From positions 1 to 64,000 of the forward strand of contig JAICSS010000014.1 of NCBI GenBank assembly GCA_025936755.1: a stretch of DNA of 64,000 nt, read 5' to 3'. Below the pieces are notes generated by a model, which saw only the letters and a list, made by a program, of their open reading frames with translations, had not been told where the DNA came from and ran no database searches. The translations under genes were made by a program, and so were the position numbers. Positions 22,611-31,049 of this stretch are shown piece after piece. The stretch's first letter is position 1. The number at the start of each line of letters is the position of its first letter. The DNA is from Solirubrobacterales bacterium. GTDB taxonomy: Bacteria > Actinomycetota > Thermoleophilia > Solirubrobacterales > 70-9.

Positions 22611-22683
22611 TGGGCGTTACTGGGCTCGAACCAGTGACCTCCAGCTTGTCGAGCTGGCGCTCTCCCAACTGAGCTAAACGCCC
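22611..22683 (-). tRNA. tRNA-Val (anticodon GAC), with C at position 33
   Basis: Read on the minus strand, a full cloverleaf of 73 nt forms: acceptor GGGCGTT/AACGCCC, D arm GCTC/GAGC, anticodon stem CCAGC/GCTGG, T arm ACTGG-TTCGAGC-CCAGT. The anticodon loop is TCGACAA, giving GAC (22648-22650) for valine. Position 33 is C instead of the nearly universal U. The CCA end is not encoded. Confidence 0.92.
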
Positions 22684-22866
22684 GGGAGCCCGGAATCTAG
22701 CAATGGGCAGGAGAAAGACGGGTGGTGGCTAAAGGAATGCTTGCAACGGTCGATGCAAGGGGTGCAACCTTCCTGGACCTTCGGTGTTTAGGGAGAGAAC
22801 TTCAAAAGCTTGAGGACCGACGAGCCAGGGGGTCAGGGACTTTCTGGAGGTACGTCCTTCGGAGAC

Positions 22867-22891
22867 AAAGGGCCCCATTTGGGGCCCTTTT
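22867..22891. terminator. bidirectional terminator hairpin below zwf
   Basis: AAAGGGCCCC and GGGGCCCTTT form a perfect 10-bp stem with an ATTT loop, with T tracts at both ends. It lies 11 bp past the zwf stop. The rest of the gap (22684-22866) shows no convincing gene; it contains short direct repeats of TGCAA at about 22740-22770. Confidence 0.85.
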
Positions 22892-22902
22892 CCGTTCCGG
22901 AG

Positions 22903-24351
22903 CTAGACGTGGTCGTTGGGCAGGTGCCAGCGGCGCGGGGCGATCAGCCGGTCGATCTCCGGCGGGCCCCAGGAGCCGGAGGCGTAGGGGATCGCCGGCG
23001 GCGGGGTCCCGAGCACGGGCTGGGAGATCTCCCAGAGGCGCTCGATCGCCTCGGAGCTGGTGAAGAGGGTGCGGTCGCCGAGCATGACGTCGTGGATCAG
23101 CCGCTCGTAGGGATCGAGGGCGGCTTCGGGGCCGCCGAAGGTCTCGGCGTAGCTGAAGCGCATGTGGGCCTCGCCGAGCTGGATCCGCGGCCCCGGCACC
23201 TTGGCGAGGAAGGAGGCGGAGATGCTGCCGGGGTCGCCGAGCTCGAAGGTGAGGTGGTCGTGGCCGAAGGACTCGGCGATCTGGTCGCAGTCGAGCGGGA
23301 ACATCCGCCGCGGCGGCCGCTTGAAGGCGATCGTCAGCAGGTGCCGGCTCTCCCCCAGCCGCTTGCCGGAGCGCAGGTAGAACGGCACCCCCTCCCAGCG
23401 CCAGTTGTCAACGAAGGCCTTGATGGCGACGAAGGTCTCGGTGTCGGAGCCCGCGGCGACGCCGTCCTCGTCGCGGTAGCCCTCGTACTGGCCGCGGACG
23501 ACGTCCTCCGGGCGCAGGGCCGGCATCGCTTCGAAGACCTTCTCGCGCTCGATCCCCAGCGGTCTCGGCTCCAGCGAGACCGGCGGCTCCATCGCGACGA
23601 AGCCGAGGACCTGGAAGAGGTGGGTGACGACCATGTCGCGGAAGGCGCCGGTTTCCTCGTAGAAGGAGCCGCGCATCTCGATCGAGAGCGTCTCCGGGAC
23701 GTCGATCTGGACGTGGTCGATGTGGTTGCGGTTCCAGACCGGCTCGAACATCCCGTTGGCGAAGCGCAGCGCCAGCAGGTTCTGCACCGCCTCCCGGCCG
23801 AGGTAGTGGTCGATGCGGAAGATGCAGTGCTCGGCGAAGGAGGCGTGCAGGCGGCGGTTCAGCTCGCGGGCCGATCCGAGGTCGGTGCCGAAGGGCTTCT
23901 CGGTGATGACGCGGGCGCCGGGCTCGAGGCCCATCTCCCGCAGGCCGTCGACGGTGCCGGCGGCGGCCTGCGGCGGCAGCGAGAGGTAGAAGAGCAGCTC
24001 GGGCCCTCCCCCCAGCTCCTCGCGTGCGGCGTCGATCTGCCGTTGGAGGTCGCCGAGCCCCTCCCCCACCCCGGCGAAGCGGAGCGACCCGCTGAACCGC
24101 TCCCAGGCCTCGGGGTCCTCGGGCTTGCGGTCGGAGCCGAAGATCGAGTCCCGCGCCAGCGCCCGGAACTCCTCGTCGCCGAGCGGCTTGCGGGCGGCGC
24201 CGAGGATCCGGAACCGCTCCGGCATCAGCCCCACCTGCGCCAGGTGGAACATCCCCGGCAGGAGCTTGCGCTTCGCCAGGTCGCCGGTCGCGCCGAAGAG
24301 GACGATCACCTGGTCGTCGGGGACCGCGCCGGCGCCTCGGGCCTCGTTCAT
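22903..24351 (-). CDS. zwf: glucose-6-phosphate 1-dehydrogenase
   Basis: First step of the oxidative pentose phosphate pathway, supplying NADPH. The 482-residue protein has the dinucleotide-binding LFGATGDLAKRKLLP near the N-terminus and the active-site RIDHYLGREAVQN, both invariant in the family. It stands alone between a terminator and a divergent acetyltransferase gene, whose start lies only 11 bp away. Confidence 0.95.
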   Translation of the reverse strand: MNEARGAGAVPDDQVIVLFGATGDLAKRKLLPGMFHLAQVGLMPERFRILGAARKPLGDEEFRALARDSIFGSDRKPEDPEAWERFSGSLRFAGVGEGLGDLQRQIDAAREELGGGPELLFYLSLPPQAAAGTVDGLREMGLEPGARVITEKPFGTDLGSARELNRRLHASFAEHCIFRIDHYLGREAVQNLLALRFANGMFEPVWNRNHIDHVQIDVPETLSIEMRGSFYEETGAFRDMVVTHLFQVLGFVAMEPPVSLEPRPLGIEREKVFEAMPALRPEDVVRGQYEGYRDEDGVAAGSDTETFVAIKAFVDNWRWEGVPFYLRSGKRLGESRHLLTIAFKRPPRRMFPLDCDQIAESFGHDHLTFELGDPGSISASFLAKVPGPRIQLGEAHMRFSYAETFGGPEAALDPYERLIHDVMLGDRTLFTSSEAIERLWEISQPVLGTPPPAIPYASGSWGPPEIDRLIAPRRWHLPNDHV

Positions 24352-24362
24352 CGCCGCAGCCT

Positions 24363-25205
24363 ATGCTGCCACCGATGCCGATCCGCACCACCAGCGACGG
24401 GGCGAGCTACGACCCGGTCGAGCTCGACCGGGTCGAGCGCCGGTTCTGGGGGGACATCTGGGACTCGGTCCCGGCCGAGGTGGCGCGGGAGCACGGGATC
24501 GAGCGGCGGGACTTCGGGGCGATCCAGGCCGGCGTCGTCCGCGACCTCGGCCAGGTCGGGATGATGAACCTGCTGCTGGGAGCGGGCGAGGCCTCCACCG
24601 GCGAGCTCGCCGCGGCGGTTTCGTGGGCCGAGGAGCGCGGCGCCCGTCCCTACGTCCCCCTTTCCCCCGGCCTCCCCGGCTCCGGCGCGGCCGAGGACTG
24701 GCTGCAGGCCAATGGCTTCGGGGACGCCTACGCCTGGATGAAGTTCGTCCGCGACCCGCACCCGCCCCGCTTCCCCGCCCCCGACGGAATCGAGGTGGTG
24801 GAGCTGGGGTCGCCCGACGAGGAGCCGTTCGGGACGATCGCCGCCCTCGGCTTCGGCATGCCGGCCTGGGGCGCCGAGTTCTTCGCCCACCTGCCCGGCC
24901 GCGAGGGCTGGCGCTGCTACGTCGCCAGGATCGACGGCGAAGCCCAGGCCTGCGGGGCGATGGTGATCGAGGACGGGATCGCCGAGCTCGGGATCGGCGC
25001 CACCCTCGAGGCGGCCCGGGGACGCGGCTGCCAGACCGCCCTCCTGCGCCGCCGCATCGGCGACGCCGCCGCGGCCGGTTGCCGGACCCTCTTCGTCGAG
25101 ACGGGAGAGCGGGTTCCGGACCGGCCGTCGGCGAGCTATCGCAACATCCTCAAGGCGGGCTTCGAAGAGGCCTACCTGCGGCCGAACTGGCAGCGGCCGG
25201 CCTAA
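24363..25205 (+). CDS. GNAT-family N-acetyltransferase
   Basis: The C-terminal third shows the acetyl-CoA-binding GNAT core (EAARGRGCQTALLRRRIGDA, then ASYRNILKAGFEEAY, where Y follows the last strand). The N-terminal 130 residues form a separate region with a Trp-rich start (RRFWGDIWDSV), as in two-domain GNATs. Two ATG codons, at 24363 and 24375, are possible starts. The substrate is unknown. Confidence 0.82.
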   Translation: MLPPMPIRTTSDGASYDPVELDRVERRFWGDIWDSVPAEVAREHGIERRDFGAIQAGVVRDLGQVGMMNLLLGAGEASTGELAAAVSWAEERGARPYVPLSPGLPGSGAAEDWLQANGFGDAYAWMKFVRDPHPPRFPAPDGIEVVELGSPDEEPFGTIAALGFGMPAWGAEFFAHLPGREGWRCYVARIDGEAQACGAMVIEDGIAELGIGATLEAARGRGCQTALLRRRIGDAAAAGCRTLFVETGERVPDRPSASYRNILKAGFEEAYLRPNWQRPA

Positions 25206-25876
25206 GCGGCCGCCGTCCGCCGGCTTTCGCCCTCCCGCGGTTCGAAGCCGGCGCGGTCGACCTTGCGGTGGTAGCGCTCCCCCACCTTGCCGCCGGAGAT
25301 CGCCGCCAGCAGCGTCGCCAGGAGGACGAGGACGAGCGCGATCGCCGCCCCGCCCGCGAGCGAGCCTTCGTCGATCGGGATCCGCGGCAGGTTGAGCTGC
25401 GAGAACAGGTTGTATTCGGAGCCGGCGATGGCGCCGAGGATCGCCAGCGCCACCGTCGCCAGCAGCCCGAACAGCCAGACGCCGAGGCCCTGGCGGCCGC
25501 CGTCGAAGCGCGACATCCGCCCGGCCACGTAGCCGCCGGCGTAGTAGCTGATCGCGAGCACGACGATGAGGAGGATGCCGCCGACGATGCTGATCGTCTC
25601 GGCGTTGGACTTCGCTTCCCCTTCGCTCAGTTCGGTCAGCCCGATCGCCGCGCCGGCCGCGCTCAACAGCGCCGTCAGCAGAACCGCGACTCCGACGGCG
25701 ACCAGCCAGCCGAAGAAGGCGGCCCCGAGGTTGAAGCCCCCGTATTCGTCGCGCTGGCGCTCGCGGACGACGGCCGGGCCGGCCGCGCCTTCGCGCCTTT
25801 CGCGGATCTCGCCGCGGTCGCGGACGCCGTCGCCGTCGCGATCCGTGAGCGTTCGTTCTCCGGTCCTCTCGGCCAT
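25202..25876 (-). CDS. four-helix membrane protein with charged N-terminus
   Basis: The ATG at 25876 has a GAGGAAGAG ribosome-binding sequence just ahead. The 224-residue product begins with a very charged cytoplasmic segment that contains DRDGDGVRD, a calcium-loop-like pattern (D-x-D-x-D-G-x-x-D type). Four hydrophobic helices follow: about 50-75, 87-112, 123-146 and 165-187. It resembles YrzE/TIGR04086-like small membrane proteins, but no firm assignment is possible. The 3' end overlaps the GNAT 3' end by 4 bp. Confidence 0.68.
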   Translation of the reverse strand: MAERTGERTLTDRDGDGVRDRGEIRERREGAAGPAVVRERQRDEYGGFNLGAAFFGWLVAVGVAVLLTALLSAAGAAIGLTELSEGEAKSNAETISIVGGILLIVVLAISYYAGGYVAGRMSRFDGGRQGLGVWLFGLLATVALAILGAIAGSEYNLFSQLNLPRIPIDEGSLAGGAAIALVLVLLATLLAAISGGKVGERYHRKVDRAGFEPREGESRRTAAA

Positions 25877-26025
25877 CTCTTCCTCCTCAGTTCCCTGGTC
25901 TTGCGGATGCACTGCGACTGGTCGACAGACCCCGAGTACCCGGGAGAGCAGGGAATAACCGGTCTGAACCCGGAGAACCGGGCGTTCGTATGCCGGTGAC
26001 GACCCACTCCGAAAGGCAGGGAAGG

Positions 26026-26308
26026 ATGAACAGCAGACGATTGGCCCTACTCGCGACGACGGCGCTGGCCGTGGCGCTGGCCGTGGGCGTGCTCGCGCTA
26101 CCGGCCCAGGCGGCGCTGCGCCACATCGACGGCACCGTCGCCTCCAAGAGCTCCGACGACCACAGCTTCCGCCTCACCACCCAGAGCGGCAACCGGATCC
26201 GGATCGAGGTCAACGGCACGACCCGCTTCGAGCGGATCGCCGGGTTCGGGGCCCTCCACAAGGGGATGCGGATCGAGGTCGAAGCCCGGCGCACCGACGG
26301 CGGCCTAG
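26026..26308 (+). pseudogene. 5' part of a secreted DUF5666-like gene, split by the insertion element
   Basis: From ATG 26026 (after GGGAAGG) the product has a signal peptide ending ALPAQA and a small beta-rich domain: IDGTVASKSSDDHSFRLTTQ, then a segment ending GMRIEVEARRTDGG. This is the pattern of DUF5666-type OB-like secreted domains. The frame then runs into the insertion element and stops at 26362-26364 with a foreign tail. The original 3' end lies at 28980-29059. Joined through one CTAG, the frame reads RRTDGGLVAKHVEPRGGG without a break. Confidence 0.8.
26305..26308. repeat. left CTAG target-site duplication
   Basis: CTAG occurs directly outside the left inverted end of the element, and again at 28976-28979 outside the right end. 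Keeping one copy restores the coding frame of the interrupted gene. Confidence 0.85.
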
Positions 26309-26325
26309 GAGGGATTGGCGAAACT
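26309..26325. repeat. left terminal inverted repeat
   Basis: GAGGGATTGGCGAAACT. The inner 11 bases (TTGGCGAAACT) are identical to those of the right end in inverted orientation, and so are the outer GAG. Confidence 0.85.
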
Positions 26326-26670
26326 CGCAGGCTCAATAGCCATGCGGGTTCGCAGGGTCGGTGATTTCATGGATACCTCCGGTTCGGGCTGGTTCTACCC
26401 CAGCGATTTATCGTTGAGAACGTGCCGCTCCTGAGGGGCGTCCGGTCTCTGTCGGGACTGCGAGCGCTTTTGAGCGCTTTGGGGTCGGCCCGCGTGCTAC
26501 ACCCCACGGGCTACAAGGGCTTACAGGCCACTTTGCTCGTGACACAAGCGGCGGAATCTCGCTTGCAGAGCCAAATGCAGTGTGGACACATTCCGTCCGG
26601 TCTCAATGTAACCCTGCCCCTTGCGTTGAGTTCGCTGATGGCGTGCTGAACAACTGAATAGCGGTGAGGG

Positions 26671-26698
26671 ACGACCCCCGATGGCAACCGGGGGTCGT
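26671..26698 (+). terminator. hairpin/terminator 1 in the element
   Basis: ACGACCCCCG pairs perfectly with CGGGGGTCGT over an 8-nt loop, followed by TC rather than a long T run, so termination would be weak. The stem core GACCCCCG/CGGGGGTC is the same as in the hairpin at 27413-27443. Confidence 0.6.
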
Positions 26699-26925
26699 TC
26701 TGCGTCTGAAGGCATCCGACCCTTGCTGTAGACCATCTGCCAGCCGACCTCGGTCGGTGTTGCCGCAGTACCGCCACCCAGCCATCAGGAAGTGAGTGAA
26801 GCTGAAATGACGATCACCTACTCACGAGAACTCAAATGCTCCCAGTCTTTCCGCCACGTGCCGTAATCCCGTCGAACACTTGCTTCGCGGAATGCTGCTC
26901 TGGCAGCAGCGATAGCCCCTTCCTG

Positions 26926-26950
26926 AAAGCGCCCCGTCGGGCGCTTTTTT
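26926..26950 (+). terminator. strong terminator 2 in the element
   Basis: AAAGCGCCC pairs with GGGCGCTTT across a CGTC loop and ends in six T. This is a textbook plus-strand intrinsic terminator with no protein gene upstream of it inside the element, which implies a transcribed non-coding RNA. Confidence 0.85.
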
Positions 26951-27043
26951 CGTTCTGGGCCGCAACGTCTTCCGAATCTTGCCCGCGACCGGATAGTCGG
27001 GCGCGACGACAAAAGGAGTTGGTGATGTCCAGGAGGTGAGAGT

Positions 27044-27081
27044 GCGGGCCGGGCTTCCGCTTGACAGAGACCCCGGCCCGC
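27044..27081 (+). other. GC-rich 10-bp hairpin in the element
   Basis: GCGGGCCGGG and CCCGGCCCGC form a perfect stem with an 18-nt loop. It stands 9 nt before the terminator at 27091-27132 and may be part of the same structured RNA. Confidence 0.6.
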
Positions 27082-27090
27082 CATCCCAAC

Positions 27091-27132
27091 GGCGGGGGCG
27101 GAGCGTTTGCCCGCTCCGCTTCCCGCCCTTTT
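27091..27132 (+). terminator. terminator 3, directly ahead of the tRNA-like gene
   Basis: GGCGGG-G-GCGGAGCG and CGCTCCGC-TT-CCCGCC form a 14-bp stem with one small internal loop and a 6-nt apical loop, followed by CTTTT. It ends 3 nt before the tRNA-like gene, so that gene is unlikely to be read from the upstream transcript. Confidence 0.7.
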
Positions 27133-27135
27133 CAC

Positions 27136-27226
27136 GCCCCCATAGCTCAATGGAAAAACGGCCCACAGGCCACAGAGCAGCGCCCTTTCGAAGCGCCATG
27201 TCCCGGTTCGAATCCGGGTGGGGGCC
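27136..27226 (+). tRNA. tRNA-Glu(TTC)-like gene with an 18-nt insertion in the D loop
   Basis: The acceptor (GCCCCCA/TGGGGGC), T arm (CCCGG-TTCGAAT-CCGGG), D stem (GCTC/GAGC) and anticodon arm (GCGCC-CTTTCGA-AGCGC) all form. The last anticodon-stem pair is a C-A mismatch. The anticodon would be TTC (27187-27189) with U33, and the acceptor and loop resemble actinobacterial tRNA-Glu. The D loop is 26 nt instead of about 8 and contains its own small hairpin (GGCC-CACA-GGCC, 27160-27171). Removing 18 nt leaves an ordinary D loop (AATGGACA). CCA is not encoded. It may be a working tRNA, a tRNA mimic or a decayed copy. Confidence 0.65.
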
Positions 27227-27352
27227 TTTCAACCTTATTCGTCTCGCCGTGTCGGCGGTTAACGAGTTGTCGCCATATTCGGCGTTTAATCGAGGAGCCC
27301 TGCACCGGAGAAATGCCGAAAACTGGGGTGCGAGAAAGGCAATTTTTGGCTT

Positions 27353-27399
27353 TCTGATGCGGTTTGCCGTCCGATTCAGGCGGTAGATTCCGCATCAGA
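27353..27399. repeat. 10-bp inverted repeat in the element
   Basis: TCTGATGCGG (27353-27362) and CCGCATCAGA (27390-27399) are perfect inverted copies 27 bp apart. They lie between the tRNA-like gene and the transposase and may be a transposase-binding or regulatory site. Confidence 0.6.
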
Positions 27400-27412
27400 T
27401 TCCTACAAAAGC

Positions 27413-27443
27413 GACCCCCGCGAAGTTGGAGCTTCCGGGGGTC
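27413..27443 (+). promoter_or_regulatory. leader hairpin ahead of the transposase
   Basis: GACCCCCG-C-GAAG pairs with CTTC-CGGGGGTC around a 6-nt loop: 12 base pairs with one bulged C. It sits 23 nt before the transposase start. A second perfect hairpin (GGTACCGC-TG-GCGGTACC, 27482-27499) covers codons 6-11. Such structures in insertion elements often block translation from read-through transcripts; that role here is inferred. Confidence 0.55.
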
Positions 27444-27466
27444 AGGCCAAACGAGGTGCAACTCGC

Positions 27467-28597
27467 GTGGCAGTTCCCGATGGTACCGCTGGCGGTACCG
27501 GCCAACTTGCAGTTCTGCTCGACTCCCCGGAGATTGGGCGGCTGATCCGCGAGCTTGAGGCGACCCGCTGGACCGGGCGTCCCGGCTTCCCGGTTCGGAC
27601 GATGGTCGGGCTGGCGCTGGTGAAGTCGATCTACGCGCTGCCGACGTGGACGAAGGTCGTCGCCCTGGTGGCCGAGCACTGGAGGCTCCAGCGCGTCCTT
27701 GGCTGCGAGGGAAACCCGCCGTCGAAGTGGTCGGCCTATCGCTTCGCCGCCAAGCTGCGAGAGAACTCCGGGTCGGTCGAGCGTTGCATCGACTCGGTTG
27801 TCGAAGGGCTGAAAGCGAAGCTGCCGACCTACGGACGCGACCTCGCCATCGACGCGAGCGACATGCCCGCCTACGCGAACGGCCAGCGCTTCGTCTCCAA
27901 GGACAGCGAGGTCGAACGCAACTGGCACACCGATCCCGATGCTTCGTGGGGCCACCGCTCGGCGGTCTCGACCCGACGCGGCGGCGGGTTCTTCGGCTAT
28001 CGCCTCCATGCTGCGGTCTGCACCGCCACCGACCTCCCCGTCGCATGGTCGGTCGAGACTGCGAAGGCCAACGAAACCCGGTTCGCCGCCGACCTGATCG
28101 ACACGGCGCAGCGCCGCGGCTGCATGGCGGCAACGGCGGCGATGGACAAGGGCTACGACCAGCGCCCGGTCTACGAGCAATGCGCCGAGCGCGATTGCCT
28201 GCCGCTGATCCCGCTGCGCCAGACGCCGGACGTGAAGCGTGGCGACCATCGCCCGCCGGAATGCCAACACGGGGTCTGGACCTTCGCCGGGTCTGACCGC
28301 AAGCGGGGGGCGACGAAGTGGCGCTGCCCCACCGGGGAGTGCAAGCCCGCCTCAACGTGGGTTGCCGCCGACCGGCTGCATCCGTTGATCCCCCGAGAGA
28401 CCAAGCGGTTCAAGGCGGGTTACCGCAAGCGGGCGGCAGTCGAGCGCGAGTTCGGCCGCTTGAAGAATCAGTGGGGGTTGAAGCCCCTACGGGTCCGTGG
28501 CTTGGATCGCGTTCGACTGCACGCCGACCTGACGGTGTTGACGAAGCTCGCCTGCGCGCTGTCGCGCGCTCGGGGTCAGGCGTTGAATAGCTCGTAG
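27467..28597 (+). CDS. DDE transposase of the IS4/IS5/IS1182 superfamily
   Basis: A 376-residue transposase. An N-terminal DUF772-like part (FPVRTMVGLALVKSIYALPTW) precedes the catalytic core. The triad is Asp129 (LAIDASD), Asp227 (AAMDKGYD) and Glu326 (VEREFGRLK). The C-terminal signature Y319-R322-E326-K333 has the Y(2)R(3)E(6)K spacing of this superfamily. A Cys-rich segment (CQHGV and CPTGEC, about 266-293) may bind zinc. The GTG at 27467 is taken as start. No frameshift is seen, so the enzyme is probably active. Its 3' end overlaps the convergent gene by 22 bp. Confidence 0.9.
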   Translation: MAVPDGTAGGTGQLAVLLDSPEIGRLIRELEATRWTGRPGFPVRTMVGLALVKSIYALPTWTKVVALVAEHWRLQRVLGCEGNPPSKWSAYRFAAKLRENSGSVERCIDSVVEGLKAKLPTYGRDLAIDASDMPAYANGQRFVSKDSEVERNWHTDPDASWGHRSAVSTRRGGGFFGYRLHAAVCTATDLPVAWSVETAKANETRFAADLIDTAQRRGCMAATAAMDKGYDQRPVYEQCAERDCLPLIPLRQTPDVKRGDHRPPECQHGVWTFAGSDRKRGATKWRCPTGECKPASTWVAADRLHPLIPRETKRFKAGYRKRAAVEREFGRLKNQWGLKPLRVRGLDRVRLHADLTVLTKLACALSRARGQALNSS

Positions 28598-28842
28598 GCG
28601 CGGAGGGCGCAGCGGGTCGGCAGCACCGCTCCCTCGCAGCGGAAAAGCAAGCCGAACTGGGTCAGGTCGCGGACGGCTCTTTCGATCCCGTCGCGCTTCT
28701 GGAAGTCATCGCCTCCCAATTCGCGGATCAGGTCTGAGAGGCGCAGCGTGGCGGGCTGGGCCTCGATGACGTGGAGCAGGATCGCTTCTTCGATCTGACG
28801 ATCCTCGGCGGCGTTGGAACCTGCCTTAGGCTGGTCGTGCAT
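28576..28842 (-). CDS. small winged-helix-like protein carried by the element
   Basis: An 88-residue protein with predicted helix-helix-wing layout: ILLHVIEAQPATLRLSDLI, RDGIERAVRDLTQFGLLFR, then EGAVLPTRCALRAYELF. It has the look of winged-helix DNA-binding proteins but no named family is certain. A strong ribosome-binding site (AGGAGGT) lies just ahead. Further upstream TTGACG and TCCTAA with 18-nt spacing may form its promoter (about 28895-28935). It may regulate the element or be a captured host gene. Confidence 0.72.
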   Translation of the reverse strand: MHDQPKAGSNAAEDRQIEEAILLHVIEAQPATLRLSDLIRELGGDDFQKRDGIERAVRDLTQFGLLFRCEGAVLPTRCALRAYELFNA

Positions 28843-28958
28843 CAGGACTTACCTCCTGGTGTCACGCCCCCGGCCGTTAGCGCGGTGCGGGGGCACTTGT
28901 TGTTAGGACCCGGCGAACCTAGAGTCCGTCAACAATGCAGCGCAAGGGAATCGCCAAT

Positions 28959-28975
28959 AGTTTCGCCAAGGTCTC
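28959..28975. repeat. right terminal inverted repeat
   Basis: AGTTTCGCCAAGGTCTC, the inverted partner of the left end with three central mismatches. Confidence 0.85.
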
Positions 28976-28979
28976 CTAG
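28976..28979. repeat. right CTAG target-site duplication
   Basis: Second copy of CTAG, directly outside the right inverted end. CTAG targets are typical of IS5-group elements. Confidence 0.85.
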
Positions 28980-29059
28980 TCGCCAAGCACGTTGAGCCGC
29001 GCGGCGGCGGGGAAAACGGCGGTGGCGGTGGCGCCGACGACGGCCCGAATCACACCTGA
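28980..29059 (+). pseudogene. 3' part of the interrupted DUF5666-like gene
   Basis: After the right CTAG the frame continues GTC (using the G of CTAG), then AKHVEPRGGG, a glycine-rich linker and DDGPNHT before TGA at 29057-29059. The Gly-rich tail is plausible for a small secreted protein and continues exactly the frame lost at 26308. It has no start of its own. Confidence 0.75.
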
Positions 29060-29742
29060 GGGCCGAGCAGCCGTTCGGGCAGCGCCTCGAAGCTCTGGAC
29101 CAGCGTCCCCCCGTCGATTCGGGGGGACGCCGCCTCGCCGCCGATCAGCAGCCCGAGCCCCGGGCGAGCCTGCCTGAGCTCGGCGGCGACGGCCTCGAGC
29201 CGCGGCGCCAGCGTCGGCATCGTCGCCGCCAGGGCGACCAGGTCGGGGGATAAAGACTCGACCGCCCGCAGGAGGGCATCGGTCGGGACGTCAGCCCCGA
29301 GGTAGACGGCCTCGTAGCCGGCGTCTTCGAGGATGTCGGCGGCCATCCGCAGCCCGAGGGCGTGCTGCTCCCCTTCCACCGCGGCGAGCAGCGCCCGGCC
29401 TACCCTTGGCGCGGCCGCGTCGCCGGGCGTCGGTCGCAGCGCCGTCAGGACCCGGTTCGTCAGGGCCGTCGCCAGGTGCTCGTCGGCGACGGTGATCGCG
29501 CCTCGCTCCCAGAGCGCCCCGATGCGGTGCATCGCCGGCGCAACCACCTGCTGGTAGAGCGCGGGCATGGTCATCCCCTCTCGCAAGGCTCCCGCGGCGA
29601 CGCGGTAGGCCCCGGGACCGTCGGCGGCTCGCAGCGCATCCAGGTAGAGGCGCGAGAGACGCGCCGCGCCGCGGTCCGCCCCCTGCCCCGTTGAGTTATC
29701 AGCCCCCGCCGACTTCTCAGTCACCTCGCTAAGGCTACGCAC
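29050..29742 (-). CDS. stand-alone CarH-like cobalamin-binding sensor domain
   Basis: About 230 residues with a helical cap and a B12-binding Rossmann domain, and no MerR-type HTH. The cap carries W-x9-E-H (WERGAITVADEH), the pattern that holds adenosylcobalamin in CarH photoreceptors. The Rossmann part has E-x-H-x-x-G (EGEQHALG), the form that offers the lower-ligand His, then ILEDAGYEAVYLGADVP. The start is uncertain between GTG 29742 and GTG 29724. It lies just 14 bp downstream of a diguanylate cyclase on the same strand, so it may feed a light or B12 signal into c-di-GMP turnover; that link is inferred. Confidence 0.82.
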   Translation of the reverse strand: MRSLSEVTEKSAGADNSTGQGADRGAARLSRLYLDALRAADGPGAYRVAAGALREGMTMPALYQQVVAPAMHRIGALWERGAITVADEHLATALTNRVLTALRPTPGDAAAPRVGRALLAAVEGEQHALGLRMAADILEDAGYEAVYLGADVPTDALLRAVESLSPDLVALAATMPTLAPRLEAVAAELRQARPGLGLLIGGEAASPRIDGGTLVQSFEALPERLLGPQV

Positions 29743-29756
29743 GTACCTATTCGGAC

Positions 29757-30770
29757 TCAAGGCGCGGGCGGCCCCACCCCCGGCGGCCGGACCAGCTTCT
29801 GCTGGTAGAGAGCGCTGTCGGCGGTGCGATAAAGATGGTCGAAGCTCGCCCCCTCGCCGGGAGCGGTGGCGATGCCGAGACAGTGGGGCGCCCGCTCGGC
29901 CAGCGCCCCGGAGAGGCGGTCGAGGACGGGCTTCGCCGCCGCGGGCGAGGTGTCCGGCAGCAGCACCGCGAACTCGTCGCCGCCGAGGCGGGCGACCGAG
30001 TCGCCGGCGCGGACCGAGGCCGCGAGCCGCTCCCCCACCCAGCAGAGCAGCTCGTCGCCGGCCTGGTGGCCGTTCTCGTCGTTGTAGGCCTTGAGGTGGT
30101 CGAGGTCGATCACCGCCAGGGTCACCGGCCGGCCGTAGCGGGCGAGCGCGGTGAAGGCGCGCTCGGAGGCCATCGCGAAGCCGCGCCGGTTGAGCAGCTG
30201 CGTCAGCGGGTCGATCGTCGAGCTGCGGGCCAGCTCCCGGCGCCAGCTGTCGTGGTTCTTCGCCTGCCACAGCGCCATCACCGCGGTGCCGGCGAGGACC
30301 GAGCCGTAGACGAGGACGTAGCCGCCGCTGACGCCGCCCGCCGCCGCCAGGGCGAGGAAGGCGACGAGGGCGGCGAGCCCGGTGGCGACGACATAGCGGA
30401 CCGGGAAGGAGAGGGAAGCGAAGACCAGCGGCAGGAAGAGCGCGACCCGGAGCGGGCTTTCGGAGCCGCCGTCGACCATCGCCAGCACCCAGATCATCGC
30501 CACCGTGAGGAGCCCCCAGCAGAGGAAGGCGCGCTCACGCCACGAGGAGGCGACGATCCGCCGCCAGGGCACGACGAACTGCGCCAGCAGCCCCGAGACC
30601 GCGAGCACCCCCAGCATCAGCCCCAGCCCGGCCCGGTGCTCGGCCGCCGCGAAGAAGGCCAGATAGGCGAACCCCGCCAGCGACATCAGGATCGTCACCC
30701 AGCTCCCGGCCGCCGCGGTCCGCAGCCAGTACTGGGTCTCGAAGTCGTCGTGTGAACCGGCCGCTCGCAC
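29757..30770 (-). CDS. membrane diguanylate cyclase (GGDEF)
   Basis: Makes c-di-GMP from GTP. The N-terminal 160 residues contain about six transmembrane helices. A coiled linker leads to the GGDEF domain (STIDPLTQLLNRRGF, then IDLDHLKAYND, then RLGGDEFAVLLP). The active-site GGDEF is intact. An inhibitory site R-x-x-D lies five residues ahead (RAGD-SVARL-GGDEF), so product inhibition is expected. It starts with GTG at 30770. The B12-sensor gene follows in the same direction. Confidence 0.93.
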   Translation of the reverse strand: MRAAGSHDDFETQYWLRTAAAGSWVTILMSLAGFAYLAFFAAAEHRAGLGLMLGVLAVSGLLAQFVVPWRRIVASSWRERAFLCWGLLTVAMIWVLAMVDGGSESPLRVALFLPLVFASLSFPVRYVVATGLAALVAFLALAAAGGVSGGYVLVYGSVLAGTAVMALWQAKNHDSWRRELARSSTIDPLTQLLNRRGFAMASERAFTALARYGRPVTLAVIDLDHLKAYNDENGHQAGDELLCWVGERLAASVRAGDSVARLGGDEFAVLLPDTSPAAAKPVLDRLSGALAERAPHCLGIATAPGEGASFDHLYRTADSALYQQKLVRPPGVGPPAP

Positions 30771-30900
30771 TTGCCCGCGGATCTACCCAGCCCGCGCTCA
30801 CTTATGCCGCACGAGCTGCTGCGGGGAGATCGTGAAGTTTGACCGTCAGCCCTGCGGGGGAAGATGCTGCGGAACCCGATTCCTGACCCGGAGGAGAACA

Positions 30901-30975
30901 ATGAGCATCGTCACGATCCTGATCATCATCATCCTCATCCTGCTGGCGATCTACCTGTTCCGGCGCGTCTTCTAG
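30901..30975 (+). CDS. 24-residue hydrophobic micro-membrane protein
   Basis: Starts at ATG 30901 behind a near-ideal GGAGGAG ribosome-binding site with 4-nt spacing. The product is one hydrophobic helix (MSIVTILIIIILILLAIYLF) ending RRVF, so the positive end should stay in the cytoplasm. It resembles regulatory single-helix microproteins. It lies just before tRNA-Cys on the other strand. Confidence 0.65.
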   Translation: MSIVTILIIIILILLAIYLFRRVF

Positions 30976-30978
30976 GAG

Positions 30979-31049
30979 AGGCGCCTACCAGAATCGAACT
31001 GGTGTAAACGGCTTTGCAGGCCGCTGCGTAGCCACTCCGCCAAGGCGCC
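30979..31049 (-). tRNA. tRNA-Cys (anticodon GCA)
   Basis: On the minus strand: acceptor GGCGCCT/AGGCGCC, anticodon arm GCGGC-CTGCAAA-GCCGT, T arm ACCAG-TTCGATT-CTGGT. The 71-nt molecule has no encoded CCA and a normal U33. Confidence 0.95.

Follow-up and report, generated by a model that had tools for sequence, protein, structure and literature searches.

Structure of the element and its insertion site

The window analysed here, 64,000 nucleotides of a Solirubrobacterales genome, contains an insertion element that interrupts a DUF5666 gene. The element is probably a transporter insertion sequence (IS), an IS5/IS1182-like DDE element that combines a transposase, a winged-helix gene and a passenger slot filled, in this copy, with captured non-coding cargo. 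Its framework consists of the following features (window positions):

26026-26308, + strand: 5' portion of the split DUF5666 gene (remainder at 28980-29060)
26305-26308: left target-site duplication, CTAG; the flanks rejoin in frame over a single CTAG
26309-28975: insertion element, 2667 bp, with terminal inverted repeats (TIRs) and CTAG duplication
26309-26325, + strand: left TIR; a similar repeat is present in 15 other copies
26309-26402, + strand: conserved left end, about 94 bp (other copies compared by eye)
27467-28597, + strand: transposase, 376 amino acids (DDE_Tnp_1, E 5.4e-23)
28576-28842, - strand: accessory winged-helix protein, 88 amino acids, strong Shine-Dalgarno sequence
28951-28969: subterminal repeat TCGCCAA at the right TIR, two units with a 12-bp spacing
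28959-28975, - strand: right TIR
28976-28979: right target-site duplication, CTAG (CTAG or CTAA in relatives)

The TIRs, GAGGGATTGGCGAAACT and GAGACCTTGGCGAAACT, are 17 bp each and identical at 14 of 17 positions. The ends at 26309 and 28975, with their inverted repeats and CTAG duplication, are as given in the preliminary description of this DNA, and ends of the same kind are found in 15 further copies. When the flanks are joined over one CTAG, a single open frame results (MNSRR...TDGGLVAKHVEP...NHT-stop), with a junction that reads DGGL/VAKHVEP. This gene matches DUF5666 with an E-value of 1.9e-5 and 25.3 bits, slightly under the cut-off of 27. Uninterrupted DUF5666 homologues from the same genus span the junction (G044, 70%, residues 3-120; G047, 61%). 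Because the flanks rejoin in frame and the same-genus homologues are uninterrupted, the element is a genuine insertion. It is the one full copy in its own genome. Insertion into the DUF5666 gene with target duplication is seen, and the element may transpose as a unit.

The first 93 bp of the left end are 87% identical to those of a related copy, L003, and contain two direct repeats, TACCTC (26374-26379) and TACCCC (26396-26401), at a spacing of 22 bp, which are probably protein-binding DNA. At the opposite side, most right ends of the family copies carry a double repeat of the TTTCGCCAATCGTTTCGCCAA type.

The preliminary description overlooked the 88-residue gene on the minus strand (28576-28842). 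Similar open reading frames (ORFs) are present in L003, L026, L027 and L036. The predicted structure (pLDDT 87.5) follows the element order of a winged-helix fold, and the top PDB folds include many winged-helix regulators; the best of them, such as MepR (TM 0.66, E 0.012), are weak matches. Judged from this model, the protein is likely to be a regulator of the element.

A family of elements with a variable passenger slot

The transposase scores 82.2 bits against DDE_Tnp_1 (cutoff 23), which places it among the DDE transposases of the IS5 superfamily. Its best NCBIfam model is IS1182 (NF033551), at 144.4 bits against a cutoff of 270, and the cut-offs of all curated NCBIfam families are missed. 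Nearly all plasmid transposases that it matches are 23-30% identical, the one exception being a 70% partial match in Iamia. By sequence comparison the element is a member of a divergent IS5/IS1182-like family whose distribution centres on Thermoleophilia. Relatives were detected in 14 of 232 genomes from the order; 7 further genomes with relatives belong to other parts of the class and one to a wider phylum sample. One metagenome-assembled genome, named Thermoleophilia bacterium, contains two family copies. The genome of the window and many of the relatives are draft assemblies.

Sixteen copies could be delimited through their repeats and YTAR duplications, with the ends of the relatives set by pattern and by eye. 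A 4-bp YTAR target duplication is typical of the IS5 group. In 14 copies both sides read CTAG, whereas L003 has CTAA and L032 has CTAG/CTAA. The ends and the transposase are common to all 16 copies, and a recognisable transposase leader is present in all except the shortened L034. The distance between the left end and the transposase varies from 169 bp in L034, a minimal element of 1573 bp, to 2775 bp in L030.

This variation arises from a passenger slot between the left end and the transposase leader, which measures 0 to about 2.6 kb and differs in content from copy to copy. The slot holds a PIN protein in L027, a DUF3800 protein in L029, an N6/N4 methylase with an Mrr domain in L030, a PAPS-reductase-like protein in L031 and a helix-turn-helix protein in L032. 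An apparent nested IS66-type transposase was recognised by eye in L036, and the slots of L003, L025 and L026 encode proteins without an assigned family. In L028 the left slot is empty and extra genes are found on the right side.

Several observations accompany the family. A DUF3800-VI RNA (Rfam RF02915, 49.6 bits) is located at L029 3263-3316, in the same locus as the DUF3800 passenger. The window's own genome contains a 165-bp miniature inverted-repeat transposable element that shares the left repeat and the CTAG sites (L062 3771-3939), and an 87% identical version of it lies nested within the L032 element, at its right end (genome G065). In another genome, G363, 44 terminal-repeat sites were counted against four reported transposase matches, pointing to many non-autonomous copies.

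The transposase leader contains a covarying RNA structure

The region upstream of the transposase is conserved across the family and contains three features:

27361-27391, + strand: promoter-like conserved block, (T)TTNCGTCCGAT...GTAGNTT, in nearly all copies
27413-27443, + strand: leader hairpin 1, with covariation in 23 family members
27446-27471, + strand: leader hairpin 2; about 21 of 23 leaders fold so (minimum free energy)

The block at 27361-27391, located 5' of the leader, may serve as the promoter. Compensatory changes, as looked for in aligned copies following the preliminary description, are found in hairpin 1. Across the 23 leaders 96% of the cells are paired, compared with 33-59% for slid versions, and changes on both sides occur at 6 of the 12 pairs (32 such cells), a level that none of 500 shuffles reached. 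One column pair, 17/27, appears as AU, GC, UA and CG with no exception. RNAalifold recovers the stem unaided, and a conserved one-base bulge favours an RNA rather than a DNA dyad. Judged by this covariation, the transposase leader clearly holds RNA structure under selection; the covarying leader is unmatched by Rfam.

Hairpin 2 pairs the Shine-Dalgarno sequence GAGG (27453-27456), and the GTG start codon (27467) lies in its 3' arm. The earlier suggestion of an RNA that limits transposition finds support here, in the leader at 27413-27471, but not in the cargo, which is absent from other copies.

The cargo is specific to this copy and largely non-coding

Between the left end and the leader, the studied copy contains:

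26403-27330: copy-specific non-coding passenger DNA, about 930 bp, lacking a counterpart in the other copies
26673-26696, + strand: perfect stem GACCCCCG...CGGGGGTC, with arms identical to those of leader hairpin 1
26925-26953, + strand: intrinsic terminator GAAAGCGCCCCGTCGGGCGCTTTTTTCG, not preceded by a gene
27038-27130, + strand: two long G+C-rich stems just 5' of the tRNA-like gene (-60.7 kcal/mol for a 100-nt fold; z -4.0)
27136-27226, + strand: tRNA-like gene with a tRNA-Arg-like body (Rfam RF00005, 49.6 bits, E 5.7e-9)

The preliminary description had treated 1.1 kb as one non-coding cargo. Its non-coding character stands for 26403-27330, which has neither a codon signal nor a protein match, but the 1.1 kb do not form a single unit: the conserved left end accounts for about 94 bp and the conserved leader (27330-27466) for about 135 bp, which leaves about 930 bp of extra DNA. 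These are known from a single copy. The slot of the relatives holds protein genes or nothing, and other copies do lack the non-coding part at 26403-27330, a finding that had been named in advance as one that would speak against its role in the element. An alignment to decayed protein genes, named likewise, was not found, as the open frames of the cargo matched nothing searched.

The ORFs of the cargo that were tested have no Pfam or PHROG match, and neither plasmids nor the 232 genomes of the order contain a match to its open frames. At the nucleotide level no homologue besides the tRNA and short matches was detected in the same 232 genomes, plasmids gave nothing of note and phages no match above 23 bp. 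A phage, plasmid or viral source was rejected, the matches being limited to a 23-34-nt stretch. Other Rfam families match only far under threshold, as with PhotoRC-I at 18 bits; Glutamine-II was matched at 16.5 bits within the transposase gene, outside the cargo.

Four windows in the left part of the element are more structured than their shuffles (26660-26779, 26840-26959, 27020-27139 and 27320-27499; z -2.4 to -4.0, where 40 control windows spanned -2.9 to 2.1). The textbook terminator without a protein gene was confirmed at 26925-26953, with 10 pairs followed by TTTTTT; the element has 4 terminator-like sites, compared with 3.2 +- 1.8 in shuffles, so that there is no excess. Lacking a U-run, the stem at 26673-26696 does not qualify as a terminator. 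Its 8+8-nt arms have two matches in the window, both within the element, and in 368 kb of loci the motif is otherwise found in transposase leaders only. No sigma-70 promoter was detected in the element by a search that is uninformative for this phylum.

tRNA-like genes in five copies

The tRNA-like gene of the preliminary description was recovered at 27136-27226, where its score of 49.6 bits exceeds the RF00005 threshold of 29 and indicates a cloverleaf, although ARAGORN did not call it as a tRNA. The acceptor (7/7), T (5/5) and D (4/4) stems are fully paired and the anticodon stem nearly so (4/5). The gene departs from a canonical 7-nt anticodon loop on a 5-bp stem and from a normal D loop: the fifth anticodon pair is C.A, and the D loop carries an insert of about 19 nt (about 27155-27173) that folds as its own hairpin. 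Over 52 nt, the 3' half of the gene shares about 80% identity with tRNA-Arg(TCT) genes from the order. Antisense pairing of this RNA with the element was considered and rejected, as its complementarity is not above that of shuffles.

Four other copies, L030, L032, L033 and L039, also contain tRNA-like genes. The one in L030 (1811-1894, - strand, 59 bits) is a class II tRNA whose variable arm is long and whose anticodon is GTT (Asn); if it were charged as Ser or Leu, Asn codons would be misread. The same IS also holds the methyltransferase-Mrr gene. L033 and L039 score 46 and 39 bits, with L039 nearest to tRNA-Cys and L033 similar to it, and the gene in L032 has a six-base anticodon loop (38 bits). 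At one tRNA per 65 kb, the density in four genomes, 0.47 tRNAs are expected in the 30.5 kb of non-transposase DNA of the elements; five tRNA-like genes are observed (P = 1e-4, 16 copies). When the studied copy is left out and L033/L039 are counted once, P = 0.01-0.03. None of 11 loci outside the order holds a tRNA-like gene. The excess above the genomic rate is suggestive, the sample of 16 copies being too small.

In L033 (3746-3990) and L039 (4785-4924), a segment complementary to the anticodon and D arms lies on the same strand, 3' of the tRNA-like gene; in L039 the segments GGGTCCCTTGCA and TGCAAGGGACCC match at 12/12 positions. A hairpin separates gene and segment in both copies, and a strong terminator follows. 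Both pairing partners have changed between L033 and L039, with the complementarity kept. The complementarity score was reached by 0 of 60 local shuffles for L039 and 3 of 60 for L033, and some host tRNAs reach it too.

Origin of the cargo

In the transporter IS that we propose, the transposase would act on the terminal and subterminal repeats; the ends, the duplications and the interrupted gene are observed. The whole unit would insert at YTAR sites and carry along whatever the slot contains. Transposase output would be kept low by the two-hairpin leader, with hairpin 2 masking the ribosome site and start codon. A passenger could enter when the element acquires an end, or moves one, beyond a neighbouring gene. 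The studied cargo would most likely have been captured in this way from an adjacent RNA-gene region, together with the tRNA-Arg-like gene and the terminator. Such capture is plausible because a tRNA-Cys gene is located 75 bp from the L026 element, in the same orientation as the tRNA-Cys-like genes inside the left end of L033 and L039. Since no other copy has the cargo, the family transposes without it, and most likely the cargo is not needed for transposition.

The studied element and the L026 element, from different families of the order, are both located by a tRNA-Val(GAC)/tRNA-Cys(GCA) neighbourhood (window 22611-31049; L026 2476-4790). Insertion at tRNA hot spots was rejected as a general cause: a host tRNA is present in the fetched flanks of 3 of the 16 copies only, which was judged unremarkable given the genomic density.

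Some observations weigh against a passively captured cargo and a leader that acts as RNA. Those of the first kind come from the tRNA-like genes, which are present in 5 of 16 copies at about 10 times the genomic density, so that plain random capture falls short; in the studied gene the stems are intact save one anticodon pair, unlike the outcome of long neglect. The cargo itself was seen in one copy only. Hairpin 1 is nearly devoid of G-U pairs, and the inverted repeat may therefore act as DNA. The tRNA genes could be selected passengers that aid the element or its host, through codon supply or by replacing nuclease-cut tRNAs as proposed for phages. The number of genes, well above expectation even in the stricter count, and at least four separate gains of different types (Arg-like, class-II GTT, Cys-like and that of L032) argue for this, but their absence from the 11 loci outside the order does not, and most have abnormal anticodon loops or inserts that make charging and decoding doubtful. 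Their scores of 38-59 bits moreover lie at the bottom of the range for host tRNAs or beneath it (55.6-78 among the host matches listed), and we regard such selection as unlikely.

It is quite unlikely that the cargo is what remains after the decay of one protein gene or several, including their terminators. A 75-residue frame (26422-26649) that stops 23 bp 5' of the stem would fit, but the region gives no codon signal and the database searches described above found no protein relative. Transcripts of 26403-27226, including the stem at 26673-26696 and the tRNA-like RNA, might instead pair with the leader or titrate its factors and so tune transposition. The restriction of the GACCCCCG/CGGGGGTC arms to leaders and the cargo stem, the structured windows and the precedents of RNA control in IS10 and ISPpu9 (PMC5006887, PMC8450116) are consistent with this, but the shared arms were spotted post hoc, the tRNA-like RNA is not notably complementary to the remainder of the element and every other copy does without the cargo. 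We consider this regulatory role improbable. There is an equally slim chance that a DDE IS family repeatedly captures tRNA genes and converts them to structured non-coding passengers that act on translation or, for instance through the stem at 26673-26696, on the transposase leader. A guide-RNA or bridge-RNA element was rejected, since the non-coding cargo is not common to the copies; only the leader hairpins are, and the YTAR sites are the same.

A transporter IS with captured cargo would add a Thermoleophilia lineage with a defined passenger slot to this group of elements. It would also offer a tractable case for the study of passenger capture by IS and of the reasons for tRNA genes being captured.

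Comparison with known systems

The element resembles IS1182/IS5 in its DDE_Tnp_1 domain, in having IS1182 as its best model and in its 4-bp YTAR duplication, but falls under all curated NCBIfam cut-offs and possesses a winged-helix gene and a passenger slot. Phages and plasmids carry host-type tRNA genes. Host-like tRNA genes in mobile DNA are common to these and to the present family, where they are single, structurally odd and located in an element of IS size. A limited literature search found no description of an IS with a tRNA passenger.

The preliminary statement that no DDE element with such a cargo is known was too strong, as IS with passengers (PMC3129680) and IS with regulatory RNA (PMC5006887, PMC8450116) have been described. 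Transporter IS (tIS) carry passenger genes that have no connection with transposition (PMC3129680). IS ends, an own transposase and extra genes that vary between related copies are all found here; the difference is that the passenger of the studied copy is non-coding save for the tRNA-like gene. In IS10, the antisense RNA-OUT over the start region limits the transposase at the ribosome site (PMC5006887). RNA control of transposase translation at this site is also predicted for the present leader, but the leader would mask its own ribosome site, as read from its sequence, where IS10 uses an antisense RNA. ISPpu9 of Pseudomonas putida has a folded, long 5' leader over the transposase ribosome site and is regulated by two small RNAs (PMC8450116). 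A long leader that folds over the ribosome site is predicted for our element too, whereas two small RNAs regulate ISPpu9. The transposase of ISPpu9 is of another type. What is unusual in the present element is its mostly non-coding passenger with a tRNA-like gene, and in its family the occurrence of such genes in four further copies; it is a known kind of element and not a new RNA-guided transposon.

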